A stretch of 64,000 bases of DNA from Halosimplex salinum (GCF_003730195.1 NZ_QWGG01000013.1:1-64000), one strand, 5' to 3'. Counted from the first letter of the stretch, positions 40,863-57,238 are shown. The notes: generated by a model not told the origin, from the letters alone. Numbers and translations: made by a program.

Positions 40863-41367
40863 CCGGTGAGCGGGCACAGCCGTCGGATCGTCTCGGTGGA
40901 AGTAGCGCAGGTAGCGGTGCGGTGGCGCGCGCTGGAGCGCGCTTTCATGCGCGCGACGAAGCCGTGCGAGGGACGAGAAGCGCAGGGAGCGGAGCGACCG
41001 AGCATCGCAGTCGGTTGGGGAGGCGTGAGGCTGTCTGCGGTGCTGTGCGGTACGGTCGTCGTTCTGGCGGACTGAAAGGGCGAGGCGCGGTCGCGCCGAC
41101 CGGAGAGACGGGAGTCACTGAGTCGGCCCTATTCGAGTGAGCGGAGCGAACGAGAATATCCGGCTCAGTGACCGCGAGCGGGCCGAGGGCTTTCAACGCT
41201 TGCAGTCTCCTGCGGACGATCCATCTCGTAGCGAGCGGGGCGAGGGCTTTCGTCGCCAGCCGTCGAGTGAAGTCGAAGTAACTCCTAACGAGCAGGTCGT
41301 AGCCCGCCAGCGCACACAGTCGACAGGAGATGCGACTCGTTTTGAGCGAGGAGGCCGAACGGCCGCC
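40863..41367. other. 505-base noncoding gap with dispersed repeat copy 1
   Basis: Most of this gap (40916-41216) is copy 1 of the dispersed repeat. The remainder (41217-41367) contains a second partial GAGGGCTTTC segment at about 41242, then the leader of the oxidoreductase at 41368. No protein-coding gene is supported. Confidence 0.6.
40916..41216 (+). repeat. Dispersed structured repeat, copy 1
   Basis: Shared blocks in order are a GCGCGC-rich head, GGGGAGGCGTG (41015-41040 region), GGACTGAAAGGGCGAG (about 41071-41086), a terminal hairpin (41116-41170) and GAGGGCTTTC. The head 40916-40973 is identical, base for base, to copy 2 in reverse. The hairpin pairs CACTGAG with CTCAGTG, then CGG with CCG, then TATTC (41130-41134) with GAATA (41154-41158). 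Compared with copy 3, two base pairs are changed on both sides, so pairing is kept. Confidence 0.75.
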
Positions 41368-42405
41368 ATGACACGGATCGGAGTCGTCGGCGCGGGCGCA
41401 GCGGCCGCGGCCGCGACGTACGTCCTCGACGGGGCGCTCCCGTCGGCCGAGATCACGGTGCTGGAGAAGTCACGGGGCGTCTGCGGCCGCGCCGCGACGC
41501 GTCGCCGGGGCGACGTGACGTACGACTACGGCGCCAACTACGTCAAGAGCGACGACGAGCGGGTCGTCGAACTGCTCACCGAGACGCTCGACTCGGACGG
41601 GCTGGTCGACGTGACCGACCCGATCTACACCTTCGACGCGGACGGAACCGTCTCGGAGGGCCGCGACGCCGACGACCACAAGTGGACCTACCGCCAGGGG
41701 CTCACACAGGTCGCGAAACGACTGTTCGGCGAGACCGACGCGACGGTCCACAATTCGACGCGCGCCGAGACGCTCGTCCGCGACGACGAACAGTGGCGCG
41801 TCGTCGATTCCGATGAGACCGAGTGGGGTCCCTTCGACGCGCTCCTGCTGAACCCGCCCGCGCCGCAGTCCGCGGAACTCCTCCGCGACGCCGAGTGGGA
41901 GTCGGGGGCGCGAACGGCGCTGGCCGAGGCGGCCGAGGCCGTCCCCTACCGCACGATCTGGACCGCAGTGCTGGGCTACGAGTTCGAACTCGACCGGCCG
42001 TACTACGCGCTCGTCAACCCGGACCGCGACCACCAGGTCGGCTGGTTCGCCCGCGAGGCGTGCAAGGCCGGTCACGTGCCCGACGGCGAGTCAGTGCTCG
42101 TCGTCCAGGCTAACCCCGACTGGTCGGTCGCGCACTACGACGACGACCCGGCGGAGAACGTCGCGAAACTCGCCGACCTGTCCGCCGACGTGCTCGGCGA
42201 CGAGCGACTGGCCGACCCGGCGTGGACCGATCATCAGGGCTGGCGCTACGCGCTTCCGGACGAGGGCGTTCGACGGGGCGCCGTCGACGACGTCGCGGAC
42301 GCGGATCTCTACCCGATCGGCGACTGGGTCGCCGGCGAGGCCCGACTCCACGCCGCGCTCCGGAACGGACTGGACACCGGCGAACGAGTCGCGTATTCGC
42401 TGTAA
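41368..42405 (+). CDS. Renalase-like FAD/NAD(P)-dependent oxidoreductase
   Basis: The 345-aa flavoprotein has an N-terminal dinucleotide loop (GVVGAGAAAAAATYVL), followed by LEKSRGVCGRAATRRRG and YDYGANYV, which match the flavin-containing amine oxidase/renalase group. A C-terminal YPIGDWVAGEARLHAAL is the usual FAD-contacting end motif. The substrate is unknown; haloarchaeal members are generally orphan. It begins just downstream of dispersed repeat copy 1. Confidence 0.8.
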   Translation: MTRIGVVGAGAAAAAATYVLDGALPSAEITVLEKSRGVCGRAATRRRGDVTYDYGANYVKSDDERVVELLTETLDSDGLVDVTDPIYTFDADGTVSEGRDADDHKWTYRQGLTQVAKRLFGETDATVHNSTRAETLVRDDEQWRVVDSDETEWGPFDALLLNPPAPQSAELLRDAEWESGARTALAEAAEAVPYRTIWTAVLGYEFELDRPYYALVNPDRDHQVGWFAREACKAGHVPDGESVLVVQANPDWSVAHYDDDPAENVAKLADLSADVLGDERLADPAWTDHQGWRYALPDEGVRRGAVDDVADADLYPIGDWVAGEARLHAALRNGLDTGERVAYSL

Positions 42406-42486
42406 CCGTCCCGGGTCGGGGCGTCGCGGTCTCTCCTTGCACGTGCAGGCCCCGGTAGTTCCCTCGATGGGGCCCTCAGCACCGGC

Positions 42487-43077
42487 ATGGACAGTTCGCC
42501 GTCGCTCGTCGAGGACCGGTCGCGAAACGCCGTCGTCTCGTGGTCCCTCGTCGCCGTCCTGTCAGTCGTCGTCGTGCTGGACGTCCTGCGAGGGGACCTC
42601 CTGTGGGCGGTCTTCACGGCGGTCGTCGTCGCGGTCGCCGCGCTCCCCGCCGTCGTCACCCGCGATCGGTCGGTCGTGGTCTCGTGGGAGGCGCTCGCGC
42701 TGGCGACGGTGCCGCTGGTCGCCAGACTCGCCGGTCGCTCCGTCGAACTGCTGACCTACGTCTCCGTGGCGACGCTGGCACTGCTGGTCGCGCTGGAGAT
42801 CGTCGCGTTCACCGACGCCGAGATGCCGCCGTGGTTCGCCGTCACCTTCGTCGTGATGACGACGATGACAGTCGCGGCGCTCTGGGCGGTCGTCCAGTAC
42901 CACGCCGACGCGCTCCTCGGCACCGAGTTGCTCTCCAGTCGGACGGCGCTGATGTGGGACCTCCTCGGGGCGACCGGCGTCGGCATCGCCGCGGGCGTCG
43001 TCTTCGAGTTCTACTTCCTGCGCACGACCGTCCCCCGGGACGGCCGCGTCACGAGCGGGGGTGAGACGGATGGCTGA
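42487..43077 (+). CDS. Integral membrane protein, unknown
   Basis: The 196-aa protein has about six hydrophobic helices beginning SWSLVAVLSVVVVLDVL and ending in a polar tail (FLRTTVPRDGRVTSGGETDG). It overlaps the next gene by 8 bases and is therefore probably translated with it. The paired gene is also a multi-helix membrane protein, so they may form a complex. No function is recognised. Confidence 0.75.
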   Translation: MDSSPSLVEDRSRNAVVSWSLVAVLSVVVVLDVLRGDLLWAVFTAVVVAVAALPAVVTRDRSVVVSWEALALATVPLVARLAGRSVELLTYVSVATLALLVALEIVAFTDAEMPPWFAVTFVVMTTMTVAALWAVVQYHADALLGTELLSSRTALMWDLLGATGVGIAAGVVFEFYFLRTTVPRDGRVTSGGETDG

Positions 43078-43729
43078 AGCCGGCCGGAGCGAAGACGGCG
43101 GCGACTCCGCCCTCGGGCGCGCACTCCGCGTGTTGGCCCGTCTCGGACAGCTGGCACTCGTCGGTCTCGTCGCCTACGCGGTGTTCGTCGAGCGGAGTGT
43201 CGGGCTGGTGATCAACACGTCGCTCCCGCTCGCTATCGCGCTGATCCCCGTGTACGTCCACCGCCGCTACGACTTCCGGTTCAACCCGGTCCTGACGCTG
43301 TTCGTCGTCGTCGCCGCCGCGTTCCACAGCGTCGGCGCGCTGGGGCTGTACCGGTCGATCGGCGCGTTCGACCAGATAGCCCACGGCGTCGCCGGGGCGC
43401 TCATGGCCGGGATCGGCTACGCGCTCCTCCAGGTCGTCGAGTCCGAGTACGACTCCGTCGTGATCCCGCCCCGGCTCCGCTTCGCCTTCGTCGTCATCTT
43501 CGCCGTCGCAGTCGGCGTCGCCTGGGAGGGCGTCGAGTTCAGCCTCGAACTCGCGGCGACGACGCTCGGCAGCGAGGACGCGCTCCTCTCGCAGTACGGC
43601 CTCGCCGACGTGGTACTCGACCTGCAGTACGACCTGTTCGGCGCCGTGATCGTCGCGCTCTGGGGAACCGGGTACTTCGACGGCGTCAGAACGGTCCTCG
43701 ACGAATACGTCGGCCCGTCGGGCGGGTGA
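43070..43729 (+). CDS. Integral membrane protein (DUF2238/YjdF-like)
   Basis: The 219-aa protein has about six helices. It shows the features HRRYDFRFNPVLT, RSIGAFDQIAHGVAGALMAGIGYAL and VAWEGVEFSLE, with membrane-embedded His and Glu residues as in DUF2238/YjdF-type proteins, which have no established role. ATG at 43070 lies within the stop region of the upstream gene (ATGGCTGA overlap) and is preceded by a G-rich Shine-Dalgarno-like GGGGGTGAG. Confidence 0.75.
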   Translation: MAEAGRSEDGGDSALGRALRVLARLGQLALVGLVAYAVFVERSVGLVINTSLPLAIALIPVYVHRRYDFRFNPVLTLFVVVAAAFHSVGALGLYRSIGAFDQIAHGVAGALMAGIGYALLQVVESEYDSVVIPPRLRFAFVVIFAVAVGVAWEGVEFSLELAATTLGSEDALLSQYGLADVVLDLQYDLFGAVIVALWGTGYFDGVRTVLDEYVGPSGG

Positions 43730-43756
43730 CGACTCCCGCGCCGTTCACGCGCCCGC

Positions 43757-44350
43757 CTACAGCACTGCCTCGACGCCCGGAACGGACTTCCCCGTGACGT
43801 GAGCGTTGAGCTTCGCGGCAGCCGGCGACTCGCGGACCGCCTCGTCGTCGTACCCGGCGTCCTCGAACGCCGACTGGATCGCTCGCTTGCTCCGCAGGTT
43901 GAACTTCTGGTGGTACGGCTCCGCGGCGTGGAACCCCGCCAGCGGTTCGACTCGCGTCTCGACCCGGTCGAGGTCCAGCCGCCCGAGTCGCTCGTCGATC
44001 GCCTCGCGCTGTTCGGCCGCCTCGAAGAAGAGGACGCGCTGGTACTGGCGCTTCTCGGGCTGGTTCCGGGGGTCGTGGTTCGCAATCGCGAGGTCGACCA
44101 GCTCCTCGAACGAGACGGTCTCGGGGTCGAAGTCGACCTGCACGGCCTCGCTGTGCCCGCCGAGGTCGTGATAGGTCGGGTCCGCTTTCTCGCCGCCCGC
44201 GTAGCCGACTCTCGTCCTGACGACGCCCTCCCGCGCGCCGAACGTCGCGTCGGGTCCCCAGAAACAGCCGAGCGCGAAGGTGGCCGTCTCGGTCTCCGCG
44301 GGACTCGGCGCCCGTTCGTCGTACGCGACGATCCGGTCGGGGTCGGTCAC
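43757..44350 (-). CDS. Peptide methionine-S-sulfoxide reductase MsrA
   Basis: The 197-aa enzyme repairs methionine S-sulfoxide. The catalytic cysteine is in FALGCFWG, with GYAGGEKADPTYHDLGGHSEAVQVDFDP following as usual. The start is a GTG at 44350, preceded by GGGAGTG about 8 bases upstream. It lies 31 bases after msrB on the same strand, so the two stereospecific reductases form an operon. Confidence 0.95.
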   Translation of the reverse strand: MTDPDRIVAYDERAPSPAETETATFALGCFWGPDATFGAREGVVRTRVGYAGGEKADPTYHDLGGHSEAVQVDFDPETVSFEELVDLAIANHDPRNQPEKRQYQRVLFFEAAEQREAIDERLGRLDLDRVETRVEPLAGFHAAEPYHQKFNLRSKRAIQSAFEDAGYDDEAVRESPAAAKLNAHVTGKSVPGVEAVL

Positions 44351-44381
44351 CGGTCGCCACTCCCGACGACGACAGCGGCCG

Positions 44382-44795
44382 TCACTCGTCGGCCTCGAAG
44401 GTCAGGCCGTCGCCGTTGATGCAGTAGCGTTTCCCCGTGGGCTTCGGTCCGTCGTCGAAGACGTGGCCGAGGTGGCCCTCACAGCGACTGCAGAGCACTT
44501 CCGTCCGCGTCGAGAGGAGGCCGCGGTCCGCCCGCGTCGCGACGGCGTCCTCGTCCGCGGGCGCCCAGAAGCTCGGCCACCCCGTCCCGGAGTCGAACTT
44601 CTCGTCGCTCGTGAACAGCGTCTGTCCACAGCCCGCACAGCGGAACTCTCCGTCTCCCTTCACGTCGAGCAGGTCCGACGAGTAGCGCGGCTCCGTCCCC
44701 GATTCGCGGAGGATCCGGTAGGCGTCCGGCGAGAGTCGCTCGCGCCACTCCGCCTCGCTCTCCGGGAGGGCGTCCGTGGCGTCCTGTTCAGACAT
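44382..44795 (-). CDS. Peptide methionine-R-sulfoxide reductase MsrB
   Basis: The 137-aa enzyme reduces methionine R-sulfoxide. It has two zinc-binding C-x2-C pairs (CAGC and CSRC), GTGWPSFW and GHVFDDGP, and the catalytic cysteine in KRYCINGDGL. It is the first gene of the msrB-msrA pair. The context indicates defence against oxidative damage. Confidence 0.95.
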   Translation of the reverse strand: MSEQDATDALPESEAEWRERLSPDAYRILRESGTEPRYSSDLLDVKGDGEFRCAGCGQTLFTSDEKFDSGTGWPSFWAPADEDAVATRADRGLLSTRTEVLCSRCEGHLGHVFDDGPKPTGKRYCINGDGLTFEADE

Positions 44796-44860
44796 AGTCG
44801 CCGGTTAGGACTGGTCGCTCTTGAACGTCTCGGGGGCGTTCACTCCCTCGGAGGCGGGGC

Positions 44861-45709
44861 TCAGTAGACGCGATCGTCGTCTTCGGGCCGCGCGACCGTG
44901 TGGTGTTCCTCGCGTTCCGGCGGACCGAGGTGGGCGCGGTGCCACTCCTTCAGACTCCCCTCGGCGTCGGCCACCCACGCGGTCTCGCCGGGTTCGACGT
45001 CGAGCTCCAGTTCGTACTCGCGTTCGTCGACGAGGTCGGCGTCGCCGGCGCGGGACTCCGCGCGCGGTTCCTCGGCGACGAGATACCGCTCCTCGACGGA
45101 CGCGGCGACGTCGTCGGTCGCCTCGTCGCCGACGACGGTGAAGTCCCGTTCGAGGACGTGGACGCGGCCGGTTTCGTCGGCGAACGTGTGCGAGGCGTTG
45201 AACGCGGCGTCCGCGTCGGCGTCGTCGAGGAGGTTGCGCTGCTGGAACTCGGTGTGGCGGTGGTCGAACCCCGGCGGGAGGTGGTGGCCGGCGGTCAGGT
45301 CCTCCGGTTCGTGGGCCGGCGTGTCGAGGTGCTCGCGCGCGAACGAGGAGAGCCAGGTCCAGTCGTGTTCGTCTCCGAGGTCGACGAGGTGGTCGCCGAG
45401 CGACTCGTCGTCCTCGACGCGGCGGTGCTCGGTGTCGTCGTCGACGACGACCCGTTCGTTCTCCCGGTCGATGCGGCCTTCGTGGACCACCTTCTCGCCG
45501 GGTTCGTAGAGGAGCGGGCCGGCTGCGGACCCGGAGCCCTCCCCGGGGAACCCGACCCACTCCACGCGGTCGACCGGTTCGGTCTCGCGGTCGGGGGTCG
45601 CGCGCTCGACTGGCCACTGTTCGTACGCGTCGTAGCGCCGCACCGGCCAGTTGTCGAAGCGCGGGTCCGTGTGGTGGTCGGACGCCGCGTCGGTGTCGCG
45701 GTCGGACAT
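44861..45709 (-). CDS. Conserved haloarchaeal hypothetical protein
   Basis: The 282-aa protein is very acidic and soluble, with no signal or membrane segment. Its N-terminus has PRFDNWPVRRYDAYEQWPVERATPDRETEPVDRVEW, and the rest is rich in Asp, Glu and His, with HDWTWLSSFAREHL and AGHHLPPGFDHRHTEFQQRNLL. I do not recognise a family. The start at 45709 gives a typical short acidic head. It is the next gene upstream of msrB on the same strand. Confidence 0.7.
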   Translation of the reverse strand: MSDRDTDAASDHHTDPRFDNWPVRRYDAYEQWPVERATPDRETEPVDRVEWVGFPGEGSGSAAGPLLYEPGEKVVHEGRIDRENERVVVDDDTEHRRVEDDESLGDHLVDLGDEHDWTWLSSFAREHLDTPAHEPEDLTAGHHLPPGFDHRHTEFQQRNLLDDADADAAFNASHTFADETGRVHVLERDFTVVGDEATDDVAASVEERYLVAEEPRAESRAGDADLVDEREYELELDVEPGETAWVADAEGSLKEWHRAHLGPPEREEHHTVARPEDDDRVY

Positions 45710-45825
45710 CGTTCGACGGAGTAGGTGGCTCGGACGCAAAGGAAACAGGCGCCTATCGGCGGACGGCGTTCGAGTGACGCCGTCGGCCGCCGATATGGCC
45801 GGCCTACCGGGGCTCGCTCCCGTTC

Positions 45826-46275
45826 TCAGGCGTGTTCGGGAACCGATCCGTCGCCGGTGACCGACGCGAGCGCCGCGTCGGCGTGCCAGAGGACGGAGAA
45901 GTCCTGCGGGCTCGGGAGCGCACAGGCCATCCAGCCGAGGACGGCGAAGCGCGCGACCCCCTCGACGGCGAAGGGGTCAGAGACGACACCGGCGGGTATC
46001 AGGGCCAGCGGCGTGACGAGCGCGAGCGGCATCATCGCGGAGAGGCGGAGGAGCCACGTCGGCGTCTCCGCACCGGGCCGGGGCCGGACGACGGCCCACT
46101 GCCCGCGCAGTCCCGCGTGGAGGACGCCGCCCGTCTGGCCGGGGAACCAGTCGATCTCGTGCGGGACGCTCGCCGCGCGCAGGACGGCGGCGTGCGCGAG
46201 TTCGTGTGCGACGAGGCCGAGGCTCACTGTCAGCGCCAGCACGACGGCCGCCGCGATAAGTTCGATAGGCGTCAT
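45826..46275 (-). CDS. Membrane protein with HELAH metalloprotease-like motif
   Basis: The 149-aa protein starts with a helix (IELIAAAVVLALTVSLGLVAHELAHAAVL) carrying HELAHA, the zinc-binding HExxH of membrane zinc peptidases of the M50/DUF3267 type. Two or three more helices follow. No second metal ligand such as NxxPxxxLDG is clear, so peptidase activity is uncertain. It is divergent from the VOC gene at 46385. Confidence 0.7.
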   Translation of the reverse strand: MTPIELIAAAVVLALTVSLGLVAHELAHAAVLRAASVPHEIDWFPGQTGGVLHAGLRGQWAVVRPRPGAETPTWLLRLSAMMPLALVTPLALIPAGVVSDPFAVEGVARFAVLGWMACALPSPQDFSVLWHADAALASVTGDGSVPEHA

Positions 46276-46384
46276 CTACTCCTCGTACGTTGGTCTTACC
46301 AGACCGGTAGGGCGGTATCAATCTATCGGTCCCGGTCATCCCTGTCGGGCTGAGACCTTTGTGTCTCACTCCCCTATGGGGGGT

Positions 46385-47005
46385 ATGACAACGGACGACA
46401 GCCCGGAGATAACCGCGGAACCGCCGAACAGCCCGGTTCACACGACGGGGACGGACCACATCACGCTCATCGGGAGTAACGAGGCCGACACGATCGAGTT
46501 CTACCGCGACCTGCTGGGGATGCCCCTCGTGCTCCGCCAGCCGAACCTCGACGACCCGGACTCGACGCACCTGTTCTTCGACACCGGCGACGGCCGGATC
46601 CTCACGTTCTTCGTGACCGACGACCGCGACTCGAACGCGGCGCCCCTGCGCCACCAGATTGGGTCGGTCCACCACCTCTCTTTCAGTATCGACCCCGAGC
46701 GGTTCGCGGACGTGAAGGCGGCGCTCGACGAGTTCGGGCACGGTTACAACGAGTTCGACAGGGGGATCTTCCACTCGCTGTACACCCGCGACCACAACGG
46801 GCTGACAATCGAACTCGCGACCGACAAGTACGACGTCCCCGACGACCGGCGCGGCGAGGTCCTCGCGACCGTCCAGCGCATCCGCGTGCAGGACGGCGCC
46901 GACTACGCCGAGGCCGAACACTTAGAACGGGCCCTCGACGAACTCGGCATCGACAGCGACCCCGTCGAACTGCCTGACGCGCCGACGGGCGCCGGCGTCG
47001 ACTGA
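46385..47005 (+). CDS. VOC-family (glyoxalase/dioxygenase) protein
   Basis: The 206-aa protein has two beta-alpha-beta-beta-beta modules. Candidate metal ligands are H in TGTDHITLIG, H in GSVHHLSFSI and E in GLTIELATDKYD. FYRDLLGM is the usual module start. Family members are glyoxalases or extradiol dioxygenases; no specific reaction can be assigned. An alternative in-frame ATG is 9 bases upstream (46376). Confidence 0.8.
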   Translation: MTTDDSPEITAEPPNSPVHTTGTDHITLIGSNEADTIEFYRDLLGMPLVLRQPNLDDPDSTHLFFDTGDGRILTFFVTDDRDSNAAPLRHQIGSVHHLSFSIDPERFADVKAALDEFGHGYNEFDRGIFHSLYTRDHNGLTIELATDKYDVPDDRRGEVLATVQRIRVQDGADYAEAEHLERALDELGIDSDPVELPDAPTGAGVD

Positions 47006-47073
47006 GGCGAGGCCGCGTCGCTCCCTGCGACGGCAAGTCGGCCCCTTTTGCGCGTTCCCGTCCAACTCGGCCC

Positions 47074-47232
47074 ATGGCAAACGAGGAAGAACGAGACGAC
47101 GACGAGGACTCGGACGACCCGGAACAGGGACAGGGGCAGTACGGCGGCGGCGAGGGCGACATCGACGCCGTCGAGCAGACCGAGATGATGGAGGACGACG
47201 AAGACGAGGACGACGAAGACGACGCGGAGTAA
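47074..47232 (+). CDS. 52-aa highly acidic small protein
   Basis: This short gene encodes MANEEERDDDEDSDD followed by a Gln/Gly-rich stretch, EGDIDAVEQTEMMEDD and a run of Asp/Glu to the end. About half of the residues are acidic. A CTTTTG box 27 bases before the ATG fits a leaderless promoter, and codon use is normal for the genome. It may be a disordered partner of a basic protein or nucleic-acid-associated factor; nothing more can be said. Confidence 0.6.
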   Translation: MANEEERDDDEDSDDPEQGQGQYGGGEGDIDAVEQTEMMEDDEDEDDEDDAE

Positions 47233-47296
47233 CGGACGACGACGCGGACGATAGAGCGACGCGGGAGAGCGGGCGACGACGACCGGACGGGCGCCG

Positions 47297-48382
47297 CTAC
47301 GGGTCGTCGGTCGGATTCGAAGACGCCGAGCGGTCGCGCTCGGTCTCGTCGGATTCCGAGACTGGTACGTCTGATCGCGACTCTGCCTCCGTCGGCGAAT
47401 CGGAGCGCGGTTCCTCCGCTGATCCGCCGACGAAGAACTCCCCGTCGGACCCCGGCCGGGAGACGAACGGGCCGACGCCGATGGTGCGTTCCGAGACGGC
47501 GGCCACGCGGAGGATGTACGACGAGAGGAGCGCCAGCGGCGAGAGCGCCGCGGTCAACAGGAGGCTCACGACGACGACTCGCTGCCAGCCGTCGACGCCG
47601 GGGAACGTCGACAGTCCGAGGACGAACGTCGCCAGTATCGCGGGGAGCCCGGTGTAGAGCAGCAGGCGCGAGAGCCGCGCGAGCGTCCGCTGTGTGTACG
47701 TCGTGCGGAAGTGCGTTCGCGCCACGTCGAACAGTTCGAGCAGTTCCTGGAGGGCGTGTATGGTCTCCCGTGCCTCGGGCGAGAGCGCGTCGCCGTGGTC
47801 GGACAGGAGTCGCCGCGCCTCGTACAGCTGGCGCGAGTCGTCGAAGTCGAGCAGGGAGATGACCGCGTTGACACGTCCGGGGTCCGCCCCGCTCACCCGG
47901 CGGTCGGCGTGCTCGGCGGCGGCGCGGACGGCCGTCGCGTACTCGACGACGGCGCCGTCTGCCGGGGCGTCGTGCTCGGACGCCGTCGTCTCCAGCGTGT
48001 TCGCCTTCTGGACGATGGTCTCGACGAGGACCGAGAGGAACCCCGTCGGAGCGAGCGGCGAGGGCGCCTCGTGGGACCGCCGCTCTACCTCCTCGCGGAA
48101 CTCGCGTACGTCAGCGACGCGCTCTCTGACCTGATCCACTGTCCCCGTGGACTGGGACAGCACCAGCTGGTTGATCGCGAGGACGATAGACAGGAACGTG
48201 AACAGCCCCGGGACGAGGCCGCCCGCGATCGTATCGACGGCGTCGGCGTCGGCGAGTTCGAGGACGCCGACCTGTCCGAGCGCGACGAGGAACGCGAAGA
48301 CGCCGGTCAGGAACAGGAGCGCCAGCGTCTCGCGGTCGCCGTCGAACAGCAGCCAGCGAGTGAGCGGGCTATCAGTGTCCAT
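47297..48382 (-). CDS. Four-helix membrane protein, unknown
   Basis: The 361-aa protein has two N-terminal helices (LALLFLTGVFAFLVALGQVGVL and AGGLVPGLFTFLSIVLAINQLVL), a long cytoplasmic helical middle part, two more helices (LLLYTGLPAILATFVLGLSTF and VVVVSLLLTAALSPLALLSSYIL) and an acidic Ser-rich tail. Its start overlaps the end of the upstream TIGR00341 gene by 11 bases, so the two are co-translated and may work together. No function is recognised. Confidence 0.78.
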   Translation of the reverse strand: MDTDSPLTRWLLFDGDRETLALLFLTGVFAFLVALGQVGVLELADADAVDTIAGGLVPGLFTFLSIVLAINQLVLSQSTGTVDQVRERVADVREFREEVERRSHEAPSPLAPTGFLSVLVETIVQKANTLETTASEHDAPADGAVVEYATAVRAAAEHADRRVSGADPGRVNAVISLLDFDDSRQLYEARRLLSDHGDALSPEARETIHALQELLELFDVARTHFRTTYTQRTLARLSRLLLYTGLPAILATFVLGLSTFPGVDGWQRVVVVSLLLTAALSPLALLSSYILRVAAVSERTIGVGPFVSRPGSDGEFFVGGSAEEPRSDSPTEAESRSDVPVSESDETERDRSASSNPTDDP

Positions 48383-49718: not shown

Positions 49719-49847
49719 GGTTCGACAAGGATCGGCGGCCTGAAAAGCCCAGAGCCGGCAATCGCGGGGGTCGAGACGGTTGCAGGTGGGGCCCTACAGA
49801 TCCGCCGGGAAACCAACGCCTAAGCGACCGGCCGCCCAGTGGCCGGT

Positions 49848-50855
49848 ATGGAGTACAGACGACTCGGAGAGACCGGTCTGCAGGTATCGCCCGTCTGTTT
49901 CGGGACGTGGCGCTTCGGCAAGGAACACGACGGCGTCGTCGAGACCGACCGCGAGGACGCACACGAACTGCTCGACGCCTACGCCGAACGGGGCGGCAAC
50001 TTCATCGACACCGCGAACGGCTACGGCGGCGGCGATTCCGAACGCTGGATCGGCGAGTGGCTCGAAGACGAGGACCGCGAGGACTACGTCATCGCCTCGA
50101 AGTGCTTCTGGTCGACGGTGTCGCGCTTCCAGGAGAACCTCTCGAAGAAGAACGTCCGGGCGGAGGTCGAGGGGTCGCTCGACCGCCTCGGCACGGACTA
50201 CCTCGACGTCCTCTACCTGCACAGATTCGACGACGAGACGCCCATCGAGCACACCCTCCGTGCCGTCGACGACCTCGTCAGCGAGGGGAAGGTCCATTAC
50301 GTCGGCATCTCGACGTGTGACGCCTGGAAGCTCACCAAGGGCCTCTGGAAAGCCGACGTGAACAACTACGAGGCGTTCAGCCTCACGCAGCCGCTCTTTC
50401 ACGCGGCCTACTACGAGGACGTGGCGGAGTACCTCGACGTCTGTGCCGATCAGAACCTCGCCGTCTGCCCGTACTCGCCGCTCGCCGGCGGGTTCCTCAC
50501 TGGCAAGTACGAACGCGTCGGCGACGGCACCTACGACCTCGACGCCGACGAGGGGACCCGAGGGGACCTCGATCCGATGTTCGAGGACTGGTACGTCTCC
50601 GAACGGGGCTGGCACGTCCTCGACGCCGTCCGCGAGGTGGCCGACGAGGTGGACGCGACGCCCGCGCAGGTCGCGCTCCGCTGGCTGATCGACCAGCGCG
50701 ACTTCACTTGCGTCCCCATCGTCGGCGCTCGAACTGTGGAACAACTCGACGAGAACTTCGGCGCTGTGGACGTCGAACTGTCCGACGACCAGTTCGACCG
50801 TATCTTCGAAGCGCGGTACGACGAGGACGGCGACCTCTACGAGACGAACGCGTGA
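49848..50855 (+). CDS. Aldo/keto reductase
   Basis: The 335-aa TIM-barrel NADPH oxidoreductase shows the catalytic set D and Y in FIDTANGYGGGDSE, K in IASKCFW and H in YLHRFDDETPIEH. It begins MEYRRLGETGLQVSPVCFGTW, typical of the family. A CTAAG box about 27 bases upstream supports the ATG at 49848 over a GTG 9 bases earlier. The substrate is unknown. Confidence 0.92.
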   Translation: MEYRRLGETGLQVSPVCFGTWRFGKEHDGVVETDREDAHELLDAYAERGGNFIDTANGYGGGDSERWIGEWLEDEDREDYVIASKCFWSTVSRFQENLSKKNVRAEVEGSLDRLGTDYLDVLYLHRFDDETPIEHTLRAVDDLVSEGKVHYVGISTCDAWKLTKGLWKADVNNYEAFSLTQPLFHAAYYEDVAEYLDVCADQNLAVCPYSPLAGGFLTGKYERVGDGTYDLDADEGTRGDLDPMFEDWYVSERGWHVLDAVREVADEVDATPAQVALRWLIDQRDFTCVPIVGARTVEQLDENFGAVDVELSDDQFDRIFEARYDEDGDLYETNA

Positions 50856-51407
50856 GAGGACGTTCGTGGTGATTCTCGTGCGGGTTGCGTAGTCGGTCCG
50901 CGCCGAACCGACTGGGGAGTCGATTACTGAAAGCCCTCGACCCGCTCGCTCACGGGTCGCTTCGCTCCCCGTTCGGGTCGAGGCCTCCCTCCGGTCGGCC
51001 TCGCTCTCGCGGTCGCTGAGCGGGATATCCGCGCTCGAACAACAGCACCGCCCCGCACTCGCGCGGATAGTGCCCGCTCAGACGACTACAGTGAACGCGA
51101 GCGCGTCTCGCCCTTTCAGTCCACCAGGACAGCACGGCAGACCGCACCGCACGGTACCGCAGACAGCCACACGCCTCCCCAGCCGATTCGCTCGGTCGTC
51201 CCTCCCTCGCTCATCCCTCGCACGGCTTCGTCGCGCGCATGAAAGCGCGCTCCAGCGCGCGCCACCGCACCCTACCACCCACACCACGCCGCACCCCCAC
51301 CGCCCACACCACACCACCACGCCGCACTCCTCCCTCACCCGACTGAGGTGGATTCCCTCGCGGGGTCAGGTCCGTGCGCTTATCCGTCGCCCGCTGTTTC
51401 TGACCGT
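50856..51407. other. 552-base noncoding gap with dispersed repeat copy 2
   Basis: Copy 2 of the dispersed repeat fills 50929-51272. To its right a C/A-rich low-complexity stretch (51273-51335, built of CCAC and CACACC units) precedes the FKBP promoter. No gene is supported. Confidence 0.6.
50929..51272 (-). repeat. Dispersed structured repeat, copy 2
   Basis: Reading the minus strand it has the same ordered blocks as copy 1, including GGGGAGGCGTG, GGACTGAAAGGGCGAG and GAGGGCTTTC. Positions 51214-51271 are identical to 40916-40973 in reverse complement (58 bases). The hairpin (51016-51081) pairs CTGAGCGGG with CCCGCTCAG, and its inner stem is longer than in the other copies (TATCCGCGC with GCGCGGATA). 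Confidence 0.75.
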
Positions 51408-51878
51408 ATGGCTATCGCAACTGGTGACACGGTCACCATCGAGTACACCGGTCGACTCGACGACGGCACCGTCTTCGACACGTCGCTCCAGTCGGTCGCG
51501 GACGAGGAGGGACTCACCGAGGACCAGCCCCAGCGGGAGTACCAGCCGCTCACGGTCGAGATCGGCGAGGGACGCATCATCGAGGGCCTCGAGGACGCAC
51601 TCGTCGGCATGGAGGCCGGCGACGAGGAAGACGTGACCATCGAGCCCGAACGCGCCTACGGCGAACGCACCGACGACCGCGTCGTCGAGTACGACACTGC
51701 CGAGTTCACCGAGATGCTCGGCGGCCGCGAGCCCACCGAGGGAATGGAGATCCAGACCGAGGACGGTCTCCCGGGCGAAGTCGTCGACGCCGACGCGGAG
51801 ACGGTCGAGGTCGACTTCAACCACGAACTCGCCGGGAAGACGCTCACCTTCGAAGTCGAAGTCGTCTCGGTCGAATAA
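51408..51878 (+). CDS. FKBP-type peptidyl-prolyl isomerase (SlyD-like)
   Basis: The 156-aa protein has an FKBP fold (TGDTVTIEYTGRLDDGTVFDTS, VEIGEGRIIEGLEDALVGM) with an inserted flap domain (PERAYGERTDDRVVEYDTAEF to VVDADAETVEVDFNH) and a closing LAGKTLTFEVEVV, as in SlyD-type chaperone/isomerases. It is very acidic and lacks the metal-binding His-rich tail of bacterial SlyD. A CTTATCC box 27 bases before the ATG fits a leaderless message. Confidence 0.93.
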   Translation: MAIATGDTVTIEYTGRLDDGTVFDTSLQSVADEEGLTEDQPQREYQPLTVEIGEGRIIEGLEDALVGMEAGDEEDVTIEPERAYGERTDDRVVEYDTAEFTEMLGGREPTEGMEIQTEDGLPGEVVDADAETVEVDFNHELAGKTLTFEVEVVSVE

Positions 51879-52027
51879 CCCGAGCTTTGCGCCCCTAGCC
51901 GAGGGGATCGCTTCGGGATGCCGTCGCTCTCGTTCGGTGGATCGACTACCGTATCCTGTGATTAAACGTAGCCTCTAGGCCTGTTATGTGGAAAATAACA
52001 ACAAGATATCGTGTTTCACAGTGAGAC

Positions 52028-52198
52028 ATGTCTGGGACGAGGGACGGTCGAGCGCGAGACCAGCCACTCGGGCGGTGTCCGATCTGTGAGTCGATGATAC
52101 CCCCGGGGAACCTCCTCATCCGGTACGAGTCGGCCGACGGATGGCCGAAACTGTTCGCCGAATGTCCCGGCTGCGAGGACCCGGTGCATCCGCAATGA
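52028..52198 (+). CDS. 56-aa zinc-finger protein
   Basis: The small protein has CPIC near residue 17 and CPGC near residue 47, an apparent four-cysteine zinc site separated by MIPPGNLLIRYESADGWPKLFAE. Its stop overlaps the start of the next zinc-ribbon gene by four bases (ATGA). Small zinc-finger proteins of this size are common in haloarchaea and some affect stress responses, but I assign no function. Confidence 0.65.
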   Translation: MSGTRDGRARDQPLGRCPICESMIPPGNLLIRYESADGWPKLFAECPGCEDPVHPQ

Positions 52199-52344
52199 GG
52201 GCGATGAGCTTCCTCGGGGCGCTGGTACCGGGCGACGAGACGGTCGTCGCGGAGTGTCGGCGCTGCGGGACCACCGTCGACCGAAACGCGTCTGGGTGTT
52301 CGATGTGCGACTCCGAGGACATCGTCAGATACGAGATCAGCTGA
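52195..52344 (+). CDS. 49-aa zinc-ribbon protein
   Basis: The protein has two C-x2-C knuckles (ECRRC about residue 21 and CSMC about 35) and ends DIVRYEIS. Its ATG lies inside the stop region of the preceding zinc-finger gene (ATGA overlap), so the two are translationally coupled. A protein-protein or nucleic-acid-binding role is likely for so small a double-knuckle ribbon; there is no specific evidence. Confidence 0.62.
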   Translation: MRAMSFLGALVPGDETVVAECRRCGTTVDRNASGCSMCDSEDIVRYEIS

Positions 52345-52380
52345 TCGGTCGCAGACGAGTTCCGCCCCGCCGCGTTCAGT

Positions 52381-52428
52381 CCCATCCCGTTCTTCCCGTC
52401 CCGTCCCATCCCGTTCTTCCCGTCCCGT
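52381..52428. repeat. Perfect 24-bp direct repeat pair
   Basis: Two identical 24-base units, starting CCCATCCCG and ending CGTCCCGT, lie head to tail at 52381 and 52405, followed by degenerate CCCGTCC units to about 52452. It sits between two convergent genes. It is likely slipped-strand expansion. Confidence 0.75.
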
Positions 52429-52464
52429 CCAGGCCCGTCCGGTCCCGTCCCCCTTCCGTTCCGT

Positions 52465-53469
52465 TCAGTCGTCGACTGCGGCCGCGAACGGAGCCGTCGC
52501 GTCCCGCCAGGCGTCGATAATCTCGTCGTCGTTCTCCGCGTCCCAGTCGTCGATAGCGTCGCGTTCCTCGAGGTCCGCGATAGTTCGCTCGACTCCCTCT
52601 CGGAAGGAGATGGTGTACTCGAAGTCGAGGTCGCGTTTGGCCTTGCTGTTGTCGAACACCGTCGAGTACTGGAAGTGGTCGAGGAGCGGGTCGGTCCGGT
52701 CGGGCGCGGCCGCGACGAGCTGGTCGGTCGGGATGGAGACGAGGTCGGGTTCGGGCGCGTCCATCGCGTCGGCGACGTACTCGTGGTACTGCTTCCAGGA
52801 GATGACCTCCTCGCTGGTCACGTGGTACGCCTCGCCGTAGGCGGTCTCGTTGCCGACGGCGTTGACGAACGCGACCGCCACGTCGTCGCGGTGGCAGGGG
52901 CCCCACAGCGTCGCGCCGTCGCCGTGGACGATGATCGGCTCGCCCTTGCGGACGCGGTCGAGGTAGTACGTTCCCCAGCCCATCGTGTGGATGACGGGGC
53001 CGCCCTCGCCGTAGGTGCTCCACGGACGGATCACGGTCGTCTCGAAGGCGTCGCCGTGGGCGTCCATGAAGACGTCCTCGCACTCGGCCTTGTCCTCGCC
53101 GTAGTCGCTGACCGGCGGGTGACGGGCGGCCTCTTCGGTCGCCGGGTTCCGGTCCAGGGGTCTGTGGTACACGTCGACCGTCGAACAGAAGATGTACTGG
53201 TCGACGCCGGCGAACGCCTCGACGGCGTTCTCGGCCTGTTCCGGCGAGAAACACACCATGTCGATCACGACCGCCGGGTCGACGTCGGCGGCGACTTCGG
53301 CGAGGCGCTCGTCGTCGTTGCGGTCGCCGTGGATATGCGAGACTGCGTCCGGGAGGTCGGCGTCGGTCTCGCCGCGGTGGAACGCGGTCACGTCGTGACC
53401 GGCGTCGACCGCCTGCCGCGCGATGCCGGTGCTGATCAGCCCTGTACCGCCGATGATGAGGACGTCCAT
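52465..53469 (-). CDS. NAD-dependent epimerase/dehydratase family protein
   Basis: The 334-aa extended short-chain dehydrogenase has an IIGGTGLISTGIARQA cofactor loop, a DMVCFSPEQ segment and VIRPWSTYGEGG. The usual Y-x3-K is only approximate (DYGEDKAE), as in atypical CSP41-like members, so catalysis may be altered or lost. A TTTTATCC box about 27 bases before the ATG at 53469 fits a leaderless message. The substrate is unknown. Confidence 0.83.
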   Translation of the reverse strand: MDVLIIGGTGLISTGIARQAVDAGHDVTAFHRGETDADLPDAVSHIHGDRNDDERLAEVAADVDPAVVIDMVCFSPEQAENAVEAFAGVDQYIFCSTVDVYHRPLDRNPATEEAARHPPVSDYGEDKAECEDVFMDAHGDAFETTVIRPWSTYGEGGPVIHTMGWGTYYLDRVRKGEPIIVHGDGATLWGPCHRDDVAVAFVNAVGNETAYGEAYHVTSEEVISWKQYHEYVADAMDAPEPDLVSIPTDQLVAAAPDRTDPLLDHFQYSTVFDNSKAKRDLDFEYTISFREGVERTIADLEERDAIDDWDAENDDEIIDAWRDATAPFAAAVDD

Positions 53470-53613
53470 GCCCACGGGTGGGCGAGGGCGCGGATAAAAC
53501 GTCCCTTCGCGGAAGCCCGCGCCGCGAGGCCGAATCGCTGCCACCCGGACTCGGTCCACCGTCTGCCCCGACGAACGACAGGCTTTCGACCGGTCGGGAC
53601 CGCATCCGTGGAT

Positions 53614-55053
53614 ATGAGTGATTCGGACGGGTCGACGGCCGACGAGTCGGCCCCGCCGTCGAAGTCGACGGCGCCGCTGCCGCCGTCGCCGCCTCGACTC
53701 CCGGTAGTCGGCCACACCCACCGCTACGCCCACGACCCGTTCGCGTTCGTGGAGTGGGCGACCGATCGCGTGGGCGACTGCCTGCTCGCCAGTGTCCTCG
53801 GGGAGGGCGACGTCTGCGTACTGGCCCATCCCGACTACGTCGAGCAGGCGCTGGTGACCGACCGCGATGCGTTCGCCAAGAGCCAGGGGTTCACCGTCGC
53901 CTTCGGCGAGAGCATCGTCACCGTCGAAGGCGAGCAGTGGGAGCGCCAGCACGACGCGATGCGGGAGTTTTTCTACCCCGGCACGATCCGCGGCTACGCC
54001 GAGGAGATGGTCGCCCTCACCGAACGCCGCGTCGACCGCTGGAGCGACGGCGAGCGCCTCTCGCTCCACGAGGAGATGCAGGCGCTCGCGCTGGAGAACC
54101 TCTTCGGGACGCTGTTCGACCGCGAACTGGCCCTCGACGGCGACGACGACCTCCGCCGCGCGGCGTCGAATCTCAACGAGTGGTTCGACCCCTCGTCGTG
54201 GGTGCTCCCGCGGTGGGTTCCGACCCCCGCCCGCCGCCGCTTCGCCCGCGCGGCGGACACGCTCGACGCCGAGGCCCGTCGACTGCTCGCCGAACGCGAG
54301 AGGGCCGTCGAAGCCACCGGTGCGACGGACGCAGACGGCGGGCCTCCCGGCGACGACCTGCTCTCGACACTGGTCGCGCTCCGCGAACGCGGCGACGCCG
54401 ACCTCACCGACGACGAGATCGTCGACCAGGTGGTCGGGTTCATCTTCGCCGGACACGACACGACCGCGCTCGCGATGACCTACGCCTGGCACCTGCTCGG
54501 GACCCATCCCCGGATTCGCGAGCGCTTCCACACGGAACTCGACGACGTGCTGGGCTCGGATGTCGATGACCGCGACGCTCGTCGGAACGGGACCGACGGT
54601 CCGACGCGCCCGTCGCTCGCAGACGTGGGCGACCTCGAGGTGACCGAGCGGGTCGTCCTCGAGACCTTGCGCCTCTACCCGCCCGTCCACACTATCCCGC
54701 GCGTAACCACTCGCGACGCCCGTATCGGCGAGTACCGCGTCCCGGACGGGACCACGACACACGTCTCGGTCCGCGCGATCCATCGGGACGAGCGCTTCTA
54801 CGACGACCCCGACACCTTCCGGCCGTCGCGGTGGCGCGACGCCAGCCCGCAGTCGAAGGGGTACGCCTTCGTCCCGTTCGGTGCCGGCCCGCGTAACTGT
54901 CTCGGGCGCCGATTCGCGATGCTGGAGGCCACCCTCGTCCTCGCGACGGTCGGCCGGCGCTACCGGCTCGACCCGCTCGGCGACATCGAACTCTCGCCGC
55001 AGATGACGACGCAACCCGCCGACGGCGTCCCCGCTCGCGTCGTCGAGCGGTAG
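53614..55053 (+). CDS. Cytochrome P450
   Basis: The 479-aa monooxygenase has the I-helix AGHDTT (279-284), the E-x2-R of the K helix (LETLR), PxRW (FRPSRW) and the heme-binding FGAGPRNCLGRRFA with Cys429. No membrane anchor is visible, so it is soluble. Neighbours give no clear redox partner or substrate. The start at 53614 gives a short Ser/Pro-rich acidic head before PRLPVVGHTHRY. Confidence 0.95.
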   Translation: MSDSDGSTADESAPPSKSTAPLPPSPPRLPVVGHTHRYAHDPFAFVEWATDRVGDCLLASVLGEGDVCVLAHPDYVEQALVTDRDAFAKSQGFTVAFGESIVTVEGEQWERQHDAMREFFYPGTIRGYAEEMVALTERRVDRWSDGERLSLHEEMQALALENLFGTLFDRELALDGDDDLRRAASNLNEWFDPSSWVLPRWVPTPARRRFARAADTLDAEARRLLAERERAVEATGATDADGGPPGDDLLSTLVALRERGDADLTDDEIVDQVVGFIFAGHDTTALAMTYAWHLLGTHPRIRERFHTELDDVLGSDVDDRDARRNGTDGPTRPSLADVGDLEVTERVVLETLRLYPPVHTIPRVTTRDARIGEYRVPDGTTTHVSVRAIHRDERFYDDPDTFRPSRWRDASPQSKGYAFVPFGAGPRNCLGRRFAMLEATLVLATVGRRYRLDPLGDIELSPQMTTQPADGVPARVVER

Positions 55054-55150
55054 CTGCTGGGCCGATACCGCCGCGGAGCGAACCCGAGCAGTCCCGGCCC
55101 GAACTTCCCCCGGCGGAATCCTTTTGCCCGCGTCACGCCATCGGGTGGCC

Positions 55151-55903
55151 ATGGCTCGGGATTTCGATATCGGCGTCCAGACCGTCGTCTACAGGGACTT
55201 CTCGCTCGCCGCCCTGCTCGCCGAACTCGAGACGACGGGCGTGACCGAGATCGAACTCTGGGGACACCACCTCTCGCCCGAACACGACGACGCGACTGTC
55301 GCCGTCGCGCTCGACGTGCTCGACGACGCCGGTGCGTCCGTCTGTGGCTACGGGGTCGTCGACCTCGAAGACACCGGCGAGGCCCGTGACCACTTCGAGT
55401 TCGCGGACCGACTCGGTGCGGAGTACGTCACCGTAAACTACCCCCCGGCCGCCGACGCGATCACCGAGGAACTGGTCGACCTGGCCGAGGAATTCGCCCT
55501 CGACGTGGGCATCCACAACTACTCGTCGGTCCACCACGACGACCTCTCGCAGGTCTTCTCCACCATCGACGACGTCCGGTCCGTGCTCGATCGCTACGAC
55601 CACGACCGCCTCGGCCTCTGTCTCGACACCGGCCACTTCCTCGTCGAGGACGTCGTCCCGGAGGACGTGGTCCGCGAATTCGGCGACCGGATCAACAGTT
55701 GCCATCTCAAGGACACCTCCGAGGCCGAGATCGAGGACGTCCCCGGCGCCGGCCAGCTGGACGTCCCGACGTTCGTCGACCTGCTCGACGACCACACCGG
55801 CCTCGACGCGCCGCTGGTGATCGAGTACGAACTCCCGCAGGACCGCGCGACCGACGCGCTCGACGAGGCTGTCGGGACGCTACGGGACGCGATCGACGAC
55901 TGA
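55151..55903 (+). CDS. Sugar phosphate isomerase/epimerase (xylose isomerase-like TIM barrel)
   Basis: The 250-aa protein starts with GVQTVVYRDFSLAALLAELETTGVTEIELWG and has the metal-site segments GIHNYSS, GLCLDTGHFL, NSCHLKD and VIEYELPQ, typical of the AP endonuclease 2 family barrel. Members isomerise or dehydrate sugars and inositols. The substrate is not defined and it is far from the pectin locus. A CTTTTTG box lies about 27-30 bases upstream. Confidence 0.87.
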   Translation: MARDFDIGVQTVVYRDFSLAALLAELETTGVTEIELWGHHLSPEHDDATVAVALDVLDDAGASVCGYGVVDLEDTGEARDHFEFADRLGAEYVTVNYPPAADAITEELVDLAEEFALDVGIHNYSSVHHDDLSQVFSTIDDVRSVLDRYDHDRLGLCLDTGHFLVEDVVPEDVVREFGDRINSCHLKDTSEAEIEDVPGAGQLDVPTFVDLLDDHTGLDAPLVIEYELPQDRATDALDEAVGTLRDAIDD

Positions 55904-56014
55904 CGGCGGAATATCGCTTTCCTACTCGCATCCCGCGGTTTGAATGGGCAATAATCGACTAAATCCGGGCTCACGACGACGCCGGTTTACGGTGGTGGCT
56001 TCCCGAGGGCGAGT

Positions 56015-56296
56015 ATGAGTTCCACCGAGCAGGTCCCCGACGCTCTCCCGATAGCTCGTACCGCGATCGAGGACGAGGAGGAGGCCACCGACGCGCTCCT
56101 GCGCGCGGCCCGGCGCGCCCACGTCGAACTGGACGGCACCGACCCGCGCCTCTACGACCAGATCGACGCCGGCGCCCTCGACGCCCTCACCGACCACAAC
56201 CGGTCGCGCGAGACGAGCGGCGACTTCGTCCTCGTCGCCGACCTCTGGGACCGCACGTTCGTCGTTCGACCCACCGCCATCGAAGTGTTTCCCTGA
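56015..56296 (+). CDS. HalOD1-like small regulatory-domain protein
   Basis: The 93-aa protein has ARTAIEDEEEATDALL, DPRLYDQIDAGALDALTDHN and a C-terminal beta hairpin. This resembles the HalOD1 output domain used by haloarchaeal signalling proteins. It is a stand-alone domain with no receiver or sensor attached. A TTTAC box about 27 bases before the ATG indicates a leaderless message. The function is unknown. Confidence 0.72.
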   Translation: MSSTEQVPDALPIARTAIEDEEEATDALLRAARRAHVELDGTDPRLYDQIDAGALDALTDHNRSRETSGDFVLVADLWDRTFVVRPTAIEVFP

Positions 56297-56363
56297 TTGC
56301 GACCCGTCCCACGACGGCATCCGTAGCGTAAGGTGTTTGCGAGCGCCGCGCCCAGTCGGTGGT

Positions 56364-56699
56364 ATGAGCCTCGACGATCTGCAGGACGACGTCCAGTCCG
56401 AGTACGGCGACCTCGACGCGGAACTGGCCGTCGACACCGACCGTGAGACGCGCAACGAACTCGCCATGCTGCTGGCCGCCTTCGACACGGACGACCCCGA
56501 CGAACTCGTCCGCCGCGGCGTCCACCTCCTCTTCCAGTCCGCCGTCGAGACCGGCAACCTCGACTTCCACCTCCGCAGCGAGTACGACGTCACCTACGAC
56601 GAGTACCTCTCGGGCATGACCTTCGAGGAGATGGCCGGCGGCGCCGACCTGCCCCAGACCGGCACCGGCGACCCCGACGACCGCCGCTATCAATTCTAA
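56364..56699 (+). CDS. Conserved haloarchaeal hypothetical protein
   Basis: The 111-aa acidic protein is mostly helical, with ETRNELAMLLAAFDTDDPDELVRRGVHLLFQSAVETGNLDFHLRSEYDVTYDEYLSGMTFEEM. It has no signal, cysteine or membrane segment. I do not recognise a named function. It lies 67 bases after the HalOD1-like gene on the same strand. A T5 run follows soon after its stop (56710-56714). Confidence 0.72.
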   Translation: MSLDDLQDDVQSEYGDLDAELAVDTDRETRNELAMLLAAFDTDDPDELVRRGVHLLFQSAVETGNLDFHLRSEYDVTYDEYLSGMTFEEMAGGADLPQTGTGDPDDRRYQF

Positions 56700-56708
56700 G
56701 GGCCCCAT

Positions 56709-56837
56709 CTTTTTCCGCCTCGGGTGTCCTCGGGCCTTCGGCCCTGCGGGCACCTCTCGGCGCAAAAACATGGGTGAAAAAGGCCGGAGCCTCGCTCTGC
56801 TCGGCTCCGGTGAACCGCGCTCGCTTCGCTCGCGCGG
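56709..56837. other. T-run followed by three consecutive hairpins
   Basis: After the T-run at 56710-56714 come hairpin 1 at 56723-56754 (GGTGTCC/GGGCACC around GGGCC/GGCCC), hairpin 2 at 56784-56810 (CCGGAGCC/GGCTCCGG, 8 perfect pairs) and hairpin 3 at 56815-56837 (CCGCGC/GCGCGG). It may be a terminator region or part of a small RNA. Transcription has not been shown. Confidence 0.55.
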
Positions 56838-56866
56838 ATGCTCAGTACAGTCCACAAACTGAACAA

Positions 56867-57126
56867 TCGCGGTGGCGCGCGCCGTCGAGCGTCTCGTCGC
56901 GAGACGGCGTCGCGCGAGGGATGACTGAGCGAGCGGAGCGAGCGAAGGAATCGGTTGGGGAGGCGTGAGGCTGGTTGCTGAGCGGTCCTTGGTGGACTGA
57001 AAGGGCGAGGCGGGCTCGCGTTTATGTAGTCGCCTGAGCGGGCACTATCCGACCGAAGGGAGGATATCCCGCTCAGCGGCCGCGAGCGCGCCGAGGGCTT
57101 TCGTCGCTTGCTTTCTCTTGCGGTCT
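56867..57126 (+). repeat. Dispersed structured repeat, copy 3
   Basis: This copy has the same order of blocks as copies 1 and 2, with a shorter and different GC-rich head. The hairpin at 57034-57076 pairs CTGAGCGGG with CCCGCTCAG and then TATCC (57046-57050) with GGATA (57062-57066). It lies downstream of the hairpin array and before the convergent aminotransferase gene. Confidence 0.75.
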
Positions 57127-57238
57127 GTTTAGGCCGACTTCTCTTCACGAAATTGGAATCTGCAACCTCTGCTCGAGAAGCACGGATACTGAACGGAATT
57201 CATCGGATCGTAATGGGGTGTCATCCCGCCCTACTCCG

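Follow-up and report, generated by a model that had tools for sequence, protein, structure and literature searches.

The window, the 64,000-nucleotide stretch of the Halosimplex salinum genome analysed here, contains three copies of a structured repeat that carry no gene and lie between genes, as called with the codon model of this analysis (acidity-based training). Two covariance models were used, R1 for the 3′ domain and R2 for the 5′ domain of the repeat. Copy 1 (40921–41293, plus strand) belongs to a short class and has two 3′ tail units, with GGTGGCGCGC at 40921, GGGCTTTC at 41187 and 41244 and the tail end AACTCCTAACGAGC from 41280. Its 5′ domain at 40923–41031 scores 78.7 bits with R2, and its 3′ domain, or core, at 41069–41194 scores 119.5 bits with R1. 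Copy 2 (50929–51266, minus strand) carries extra hairpins within its 3′ domain. The reverse complement of GGTGGCGCGC is found at 51257–51266, the 5′ domain at 51166–51264 (R2, 85.2 bits) and the 3′ domain with its inserted hairpin modules at 50929–51122, comprising an R1 match at 50993–51122 (83.2 bits) and a distal GGGCTTTC at 50929. A G/T-rich low-complexity stretch directly adjoins this copy at 51276–51345. Copy 3 (56843–57182, plus strand) runs from CAGTACAGTCC to GAGAAGCA, the 5′ and 3′ ends common to a long class of copies, and includes a 5′ domain at 56873–56971 (R2, 102.3 bits) and a core at 56994–57102 (R1, 118.8 bits). Positions 56700–56842 are occupied by another dispersed unit, GGGTGAAAAAGGCC-hairpin-GGTGAACCGC-hairpin-GCGGATGCTCAGTACAG. 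It often lies directly upstream of long-class copies, is also seen beside the element at loci L009, L030, L029 and others, and stands apart from the element at L055 and L006.

An earlier note on this DNA had described three copies with ordered blocks in common. All three are present where it placed them and share these blocks; the units are longer than it gave, copy 1 extending to ~41293 and copy 3 covering ~56843–57182. When up to two mismatches are allowed, GACTGAAAGGGCGAG occurs three times in the window, once in each copy, compared to 0.21 in shuffled sequence. The compensatory changes that had been named are also correct: a C-G pair in copy 1 corresponds to G-C in copies 2 and 3, the inner stem reads TATTC/GAATA in copy 1 against TATCC/GGATA in the other two, and the inner stem of copy 2 is extended by matched GCGC. 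The number three holds for the window and is a strong undercount of the family, which has about 60 copies genome-wide.

Architecture of the element

The anatomy was deduced from 62 copies read in register. Each copy is ~300–450 nt long and has two domains; the plus strand is defined as the strand that reads GGACTGAAAGGG...GGGCTTTC. Reading from 5′ to 3′, TGGCGCGCGC precedes a hairpin whose hexaloop, NYYYRT, is conserved, and GTGCGAGGGATGA separates this hairpin from the next, which leads into ATCGGYTGGGGAGGYGTGDGGC. Then come a variable G+T-rich stretch, CCTGG and GGACTGAAAGGGCGAG, followed by a long stem whose two strands flank a variable hairpin, and by GAGGGCTTTC. Beyond GAGGGCTTTC lies a 3′ tail of ~57 nt, and 25 of 61 copies carry one or more additional units of it. 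Long-class copies are bounded by extra conserved sequence, which is ACAGCCCACAG on the upstream side and either ...CTCAACTCGCA or ...AAGAAGCA on the downstream side. The plus strand folds into the two-hairpin 5′ domain and then a long closed stem, GAAAG...CTTTC, that encloses the variable hairpin, and conserved blocks including GGGATGA and TGGGGAGG are left unpaired. Twin-hairpin modules of the GGAAGAC type are inserted at fixed junctions in 17 of the 62 copies. Some inserted modules have CUUG loops, and UCCG loops are found in other genera, both of which are typical of stable RNA.

Covariation and the folded strand

The RNAalifold consensus of 37 copies contains 33 base pairs, 14 of which show double changes. 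The alignment has 63 double-change cells, compared to 11.4 (s.d. 2.8) in 500 shuffles and 1–11 when the structure is slid along the alignment. Another set of 100 copies, drawn chiefly from other records of Halosimplex and Halorussus, gives 157 such cells compared to 23.8 (s.d. 3.9) in shuffles, in an alignment that was fitted to the model and so leans towards the structure. The 5′ domain reads GAT/ATC in some copies and GAC/GTC in others, and tandem G-A likewise takes turns with Watson–Crick pairs. The motif GA-NN-GNA-NN-GA, in which tandem G·A pairs lie beneath a GNA triloop, was counted 137 times on the plus strand of the element and 9 times on its minus strand; the remaining 63 kb of the window contains 7 on both strands together. 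Watson–Crick pairing is symmetric between strands and the non-canonical motifs are not, and therefore the single plus strand is the folded form. The same strand specificity rules out a purely double-stranded palindrome, and a structure confined to one strand, as a single-strand origin or an ssDNA promoter requires, is present. The earlier proposal of a dispersed family under selection for RNA or single-strand DNA structure is thus supported, with strong covariation in a larger alignment of copies from this genome and its relatives, well above shuffled and slid controls, and with strand-specific non-canonical motifs.

Distribution among haloarchaea

The source genome of the window (5.07 Mb in 28 contigs) has 61 matches to R1 at E ≤ 0.001, and a longer form of GACTGAAAGGGCGAG occurs 63 times in it, compared to once for the reversed control. 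Among 116 haloarchaeal genomes, R1 finds matches in 47 and R2 in 63, with E-values that are rough since both models were short-calibrated. All eight Halosimplex genomes are multicopy. Elsewhere the spread is patchy, with at least 31 matches in genome G029 and none in its congener G010; counts that reach 31–35 copies, as they do in many genomes, are lower bounds. Outside Halosimplex the interior of the 3′ domain is often different (GACGACGCAAGCACCGCA...), some copies consist of the 5′ domain alone, and some genera have divergent pairs of cores. Rfam release 15 gave nothing above the gathering threshold in the window, and at a threshold relaxed to E 0.5 it gave no match in loci L051, L163, L209, L228 and L196. 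The phage records searched contain no match to the element, and searches of the open-access literature on haloarchaeal repeats, MITEs and structured RNAs turned up no account of the family. Few noncoding mobile elements whose large fold is under selection have, to our knowledge, been reported in archaea. An element this abundant and haloarchaea-wide probably shapes intergenic regions in many genomes, and the two covariance models can now be used to annotate it.

Insertion sites and genomic position

Site 1, filled by copy 1 in the window, is also filled in genomes G004 and G007 and is empty in G001, G002, G003 and G005, where 16–40 nt separate the aligned flanks compared to 440–476 nt in the window. 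At the orthologous position G006 has a different sequence with inverted TGTTCAGATAAG ends that resembles an insertion sequence (L188, 15133–15856). At site 2 the element is present in G006 and missing from G005 and G007, and at site 3 it is present in G002. The identity of copies to their best neighbour has a median of 85%, with only two copies above 95%; recent insertions are therefore a minority.

With respect to neighbouring genes, 23 copies lie in convergent gaps, 16 and 15 in same-direction gaps in sense and antisense orientation, respectively, and 7 in divergent gaps. The small number in divergent gaps fits avoidance of promoters. The near equality of sense and antisense copies means that there is no strand link to genes. 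Orthologous sites that are filled in one species and empty in another, together with copies that are gene-free and orientation-free, therefore identify mobile, non-autonomous elements rather than mRNA switches. This goes beyond the earlier note: the family is mobile, orientation-free and haloarchaea-wide. The note had also raised a fragment of a known insertion sequence as an explanation, and the ends of the element are unlike insertion-sequence ends.

Clustering the neighbours of all copies revealed no shared neighbour gene or autonomous element near the Halosimplex copies; an OB-fold protein gene is common to the Haloarcula copies alone. No conserved promoter was found at the copies. At locus L018 (G000 contig C22, 159189–159539 and 159817–159920) the core follows the RNase P RNA gene at a distance of ~280 nt, and at L020 a tRNA-like sequence (CGGCGGGATTTGAACCGGA...) in the flank 3′ of the core suggests insertion near a tRNA gene.

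Relatives on Haloarcula plasmids

On Haloarcula megaplasmids a conserved structured region of ~400 nt terminates in the core. Six of the 11 plasmids inspected are typed MPF_T, and in all 11 a gene for an OB-fold (SOSS B-like) ssDNA-binding protein starts 230–374 nt away on the other strand; the encoded proteins are 58–97% identical to that of pNG500. Location on a plasmid near rep or ssb, as for a single-strand origin or an ssDNA promoter, is seen for the Haloarcula relatives (11 of 11 plasmids) and not for the dispersed Halosimplex copies. Just upstream of the region, in the plus direction, a TATA-like box is conserved in all 11 plasmid sequences where the anchor was found. At L163, L198 and L229–L232 the intergenic region between the OB-fold gene and the structured element is extremely conserved and contains a TATA-like box.

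The 5′ half of the Haloarcula region is 70–74% identical to a sequence upstream of rep in the two small plasmids pNB101 and pHLAJ5II, where it shares the strand of rep. On rolling-circle plasmids R1 found nothing convincing, its best match (E 0.019) lying within a coding region of pHK2, and the best R2 match reached ~15 bits (E 0.2). The small plasmids at L201, L204 and L206 share a noncoding GCGAAAGC-hairpin-GAACGTGGAGG, present on several rolling-circle plasmids and possibly their single-strand origin.

By analogy with Frpo (PMC11541004), the Haloarcula arrangement is what an ssDNA promoter beside ssb would look like. This arrangement is connected to the dispersed copies in Halosimplex by the core alone. 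Should that connection be borne out, it would suggest that ssDNA promoters or single-strand origins have a counterpart in archaea.

Discussion

We favour the explanation that the family is a gene-free, non-autonomous mobile element of haloarchaea, whose folded strand acts mainly as single-stranded DNA and which is spread by an enzyme supplied in trans, and we give this a probability of about one half. The folded plus strand would be an origin-like or ssDNA-promoter-like structure in single-stranded DNA. A replication, conjugation or HUH-type enzyme acting in trans would process this strand, and its processing would allow copies to spread. A more far-reaching form of the proposal is speculative and rather unlikely to be correct as a whole: a selfish family that would colonise archaeal chromosomes in the form of folded single-stranded DNA. 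It would descend from, or imitate, the single-strand origins or ssDNA promoters of plasmids, and enzymes of replication or conjugation, rather than a transposase of its own, would move it. The rolling-circle Rep PF07232 was considered as the enzyme and rejected: it is scattered (19 of 116 genomes), absent from the genome of the window and from G009, and does not track copy number. Reverse transcriptase (RVT_1) was found in none of the 116 genomes, with control genomes positive, which speaks against a group II intron, retron or diversity-generating element.

G-U makes up 2.8% of the standard pairs compared to 14% in the SRP RNA of the same genome, i.e. it is about 5-fold rarer, where the control is one RNA and the cells are not independent. 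This favours single-stranded DNA. G-U cells exceed A-C cells by 55 to 20, which fits a single strand, RNA or DNA alike. DNA mini-hairpins are exceptionally stable when a GNA loop is closed by two or more G-C pairs (PMC4686876). The RNA-type loops of some inserted modules and the TATA-like box of the plasmid version count against DNA. Taken together, DNA has a moderate lead over RNA as the folded strand, which should not be read as a verdict.

The alternative that survives best is a mobile or multicopy gene for a noncoding RNA, in which the plus strand would be transcribed and the fold of the RNA selected; the product could be, for instance, a small regulatory RNA or a protein's guide or scaffold. 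The strong, strand-specific conservation of structure agrees with such a gene, as do the inserted hairpins, which resemble expansions at fixed junctions in large RNAs, and the excess of G-U over A-C. The TATA-like box at the Haloarcula plasmid version fits a transcribed RNA and leaves room for such a role there. However, the dispersed copies lack a conserved promoter (an AT-box at promoter distance upstream is found in 1 of 48 short-class copies only), and the Halosimplex copies have no linked protein gene. The rarity of G-U and the absence of an Rfam match, even at the relaxed threshold for the loci tried, also argue against an RNA gene, which we regard as a serious but lesser possibility. 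The family makes the question of RNA versus single-stranded DNA directly testable.

If a Y1 transposase instead moves the folded strand as DNA, acting on its single-strand hairpins, the element would be of the IS200/IS605 or REP type. The strand-specific hairpins, the absence of terminal inverted repeats and the lack of a visible target duplication fit this type, and Y1 transposases are found in 61 of the 116 genomes, with two matches in G000. However, there is no Y1 match in G005, G009 or G029, each of which has ~30 copies or more, and no shared autonomous element was found near copies, so we consider this origin improbable.

Paired changes could also arise by template switching, which perfects imperfect palindromes in DNA with no selection on a folded molecule. 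The scarcity of G-U pairs agrees with such a process, and the entire 5′ hairpin at site 1 is different from species to species and is still self-complementary. However, template switching does not explain the excess of tandem G-A and GNA loops on one strand, the hexaloop NYYYRT or the conserved unpaired blocks, and as a general account it is doubtful at best.

A MITE-type remnant of a DNA transposon, moved through terminal inverted repeats by a resident DDE transposase, would likewise be short, intergenic, multicopy, non-autonomous and present or absent between species. We looked for exact ends and target duplications at near-identical and long-class copies. The 5′ TGGCGCGCGC is unrelated to the 3′ ...CTCAACTCGCA or ...AAGAAGCA, so the two ends do not form an inverted repeat, and inspection by eye revealed no target duplication beside the near-identical copies L035, L046 and L051; the orthologous flanks are too diverged to give an exact empty site. 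A conserved interior fold is also unexpected for such elements, and this origin is disfavoured as very improbable. A cis-acting mRNA element (riboswitch, attenuator or terminator) is hardly credible, since despite the excess in convergent gaps, i.e. at 3′ ends of genes, the copies in same-direction gaps have no fixed orientation and the genes beside Halosimplex copies belong to no common family.

Dispersed structured repeats are well known in bacteria, where ERIC, BOX and RUP are multicopy, intergenic and folded on one strand. Compared with them by description only, the present family differs in being archaeal and modular. REP/REPIN and PATE-type repeats, which are moved by Y1 enzymes of the IS200/IS605 kind, share with the element their dispersed, noncoding, intergenic and strand-specific hairpins, and in neither case are terminal inverted repeats or target duplications seen. 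Unlike a single REP, the element is ~10-fold larger and has a two-domain fold and inserted twin-hairpin modules, and several genomes with high copy numbers lack the Y1 match that REP/REPIN would lead one to expect. Single-strand origins of rolling-circle plasmids are likewise strongly structured, orientation-specific noncoding DNA, and the likeness extends to the Haloarcula module beside the core, which is the part that resembles the DNA upstream of rep. The core and the Halosimplex 5′ domain, in contrast, have no significant match on the rolling-circle plasmids searched.

The last comparison is with Frpo/ssi, single-stranded DNA promoters of conjugative plasmids (PMC11541004). The bacterial –35 and –10 elements of these promoters are not expected in archaea, and most copies of the element are dispersed on chromosomes. 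Like Frpo, however, it is a folded single strand of DNA in the reading preferred here, and its Haloarcula relative adjoins a gene for an ssDNA-binding protein on plasmids that include the MPF_T type, with the polarity that Frpo would need.
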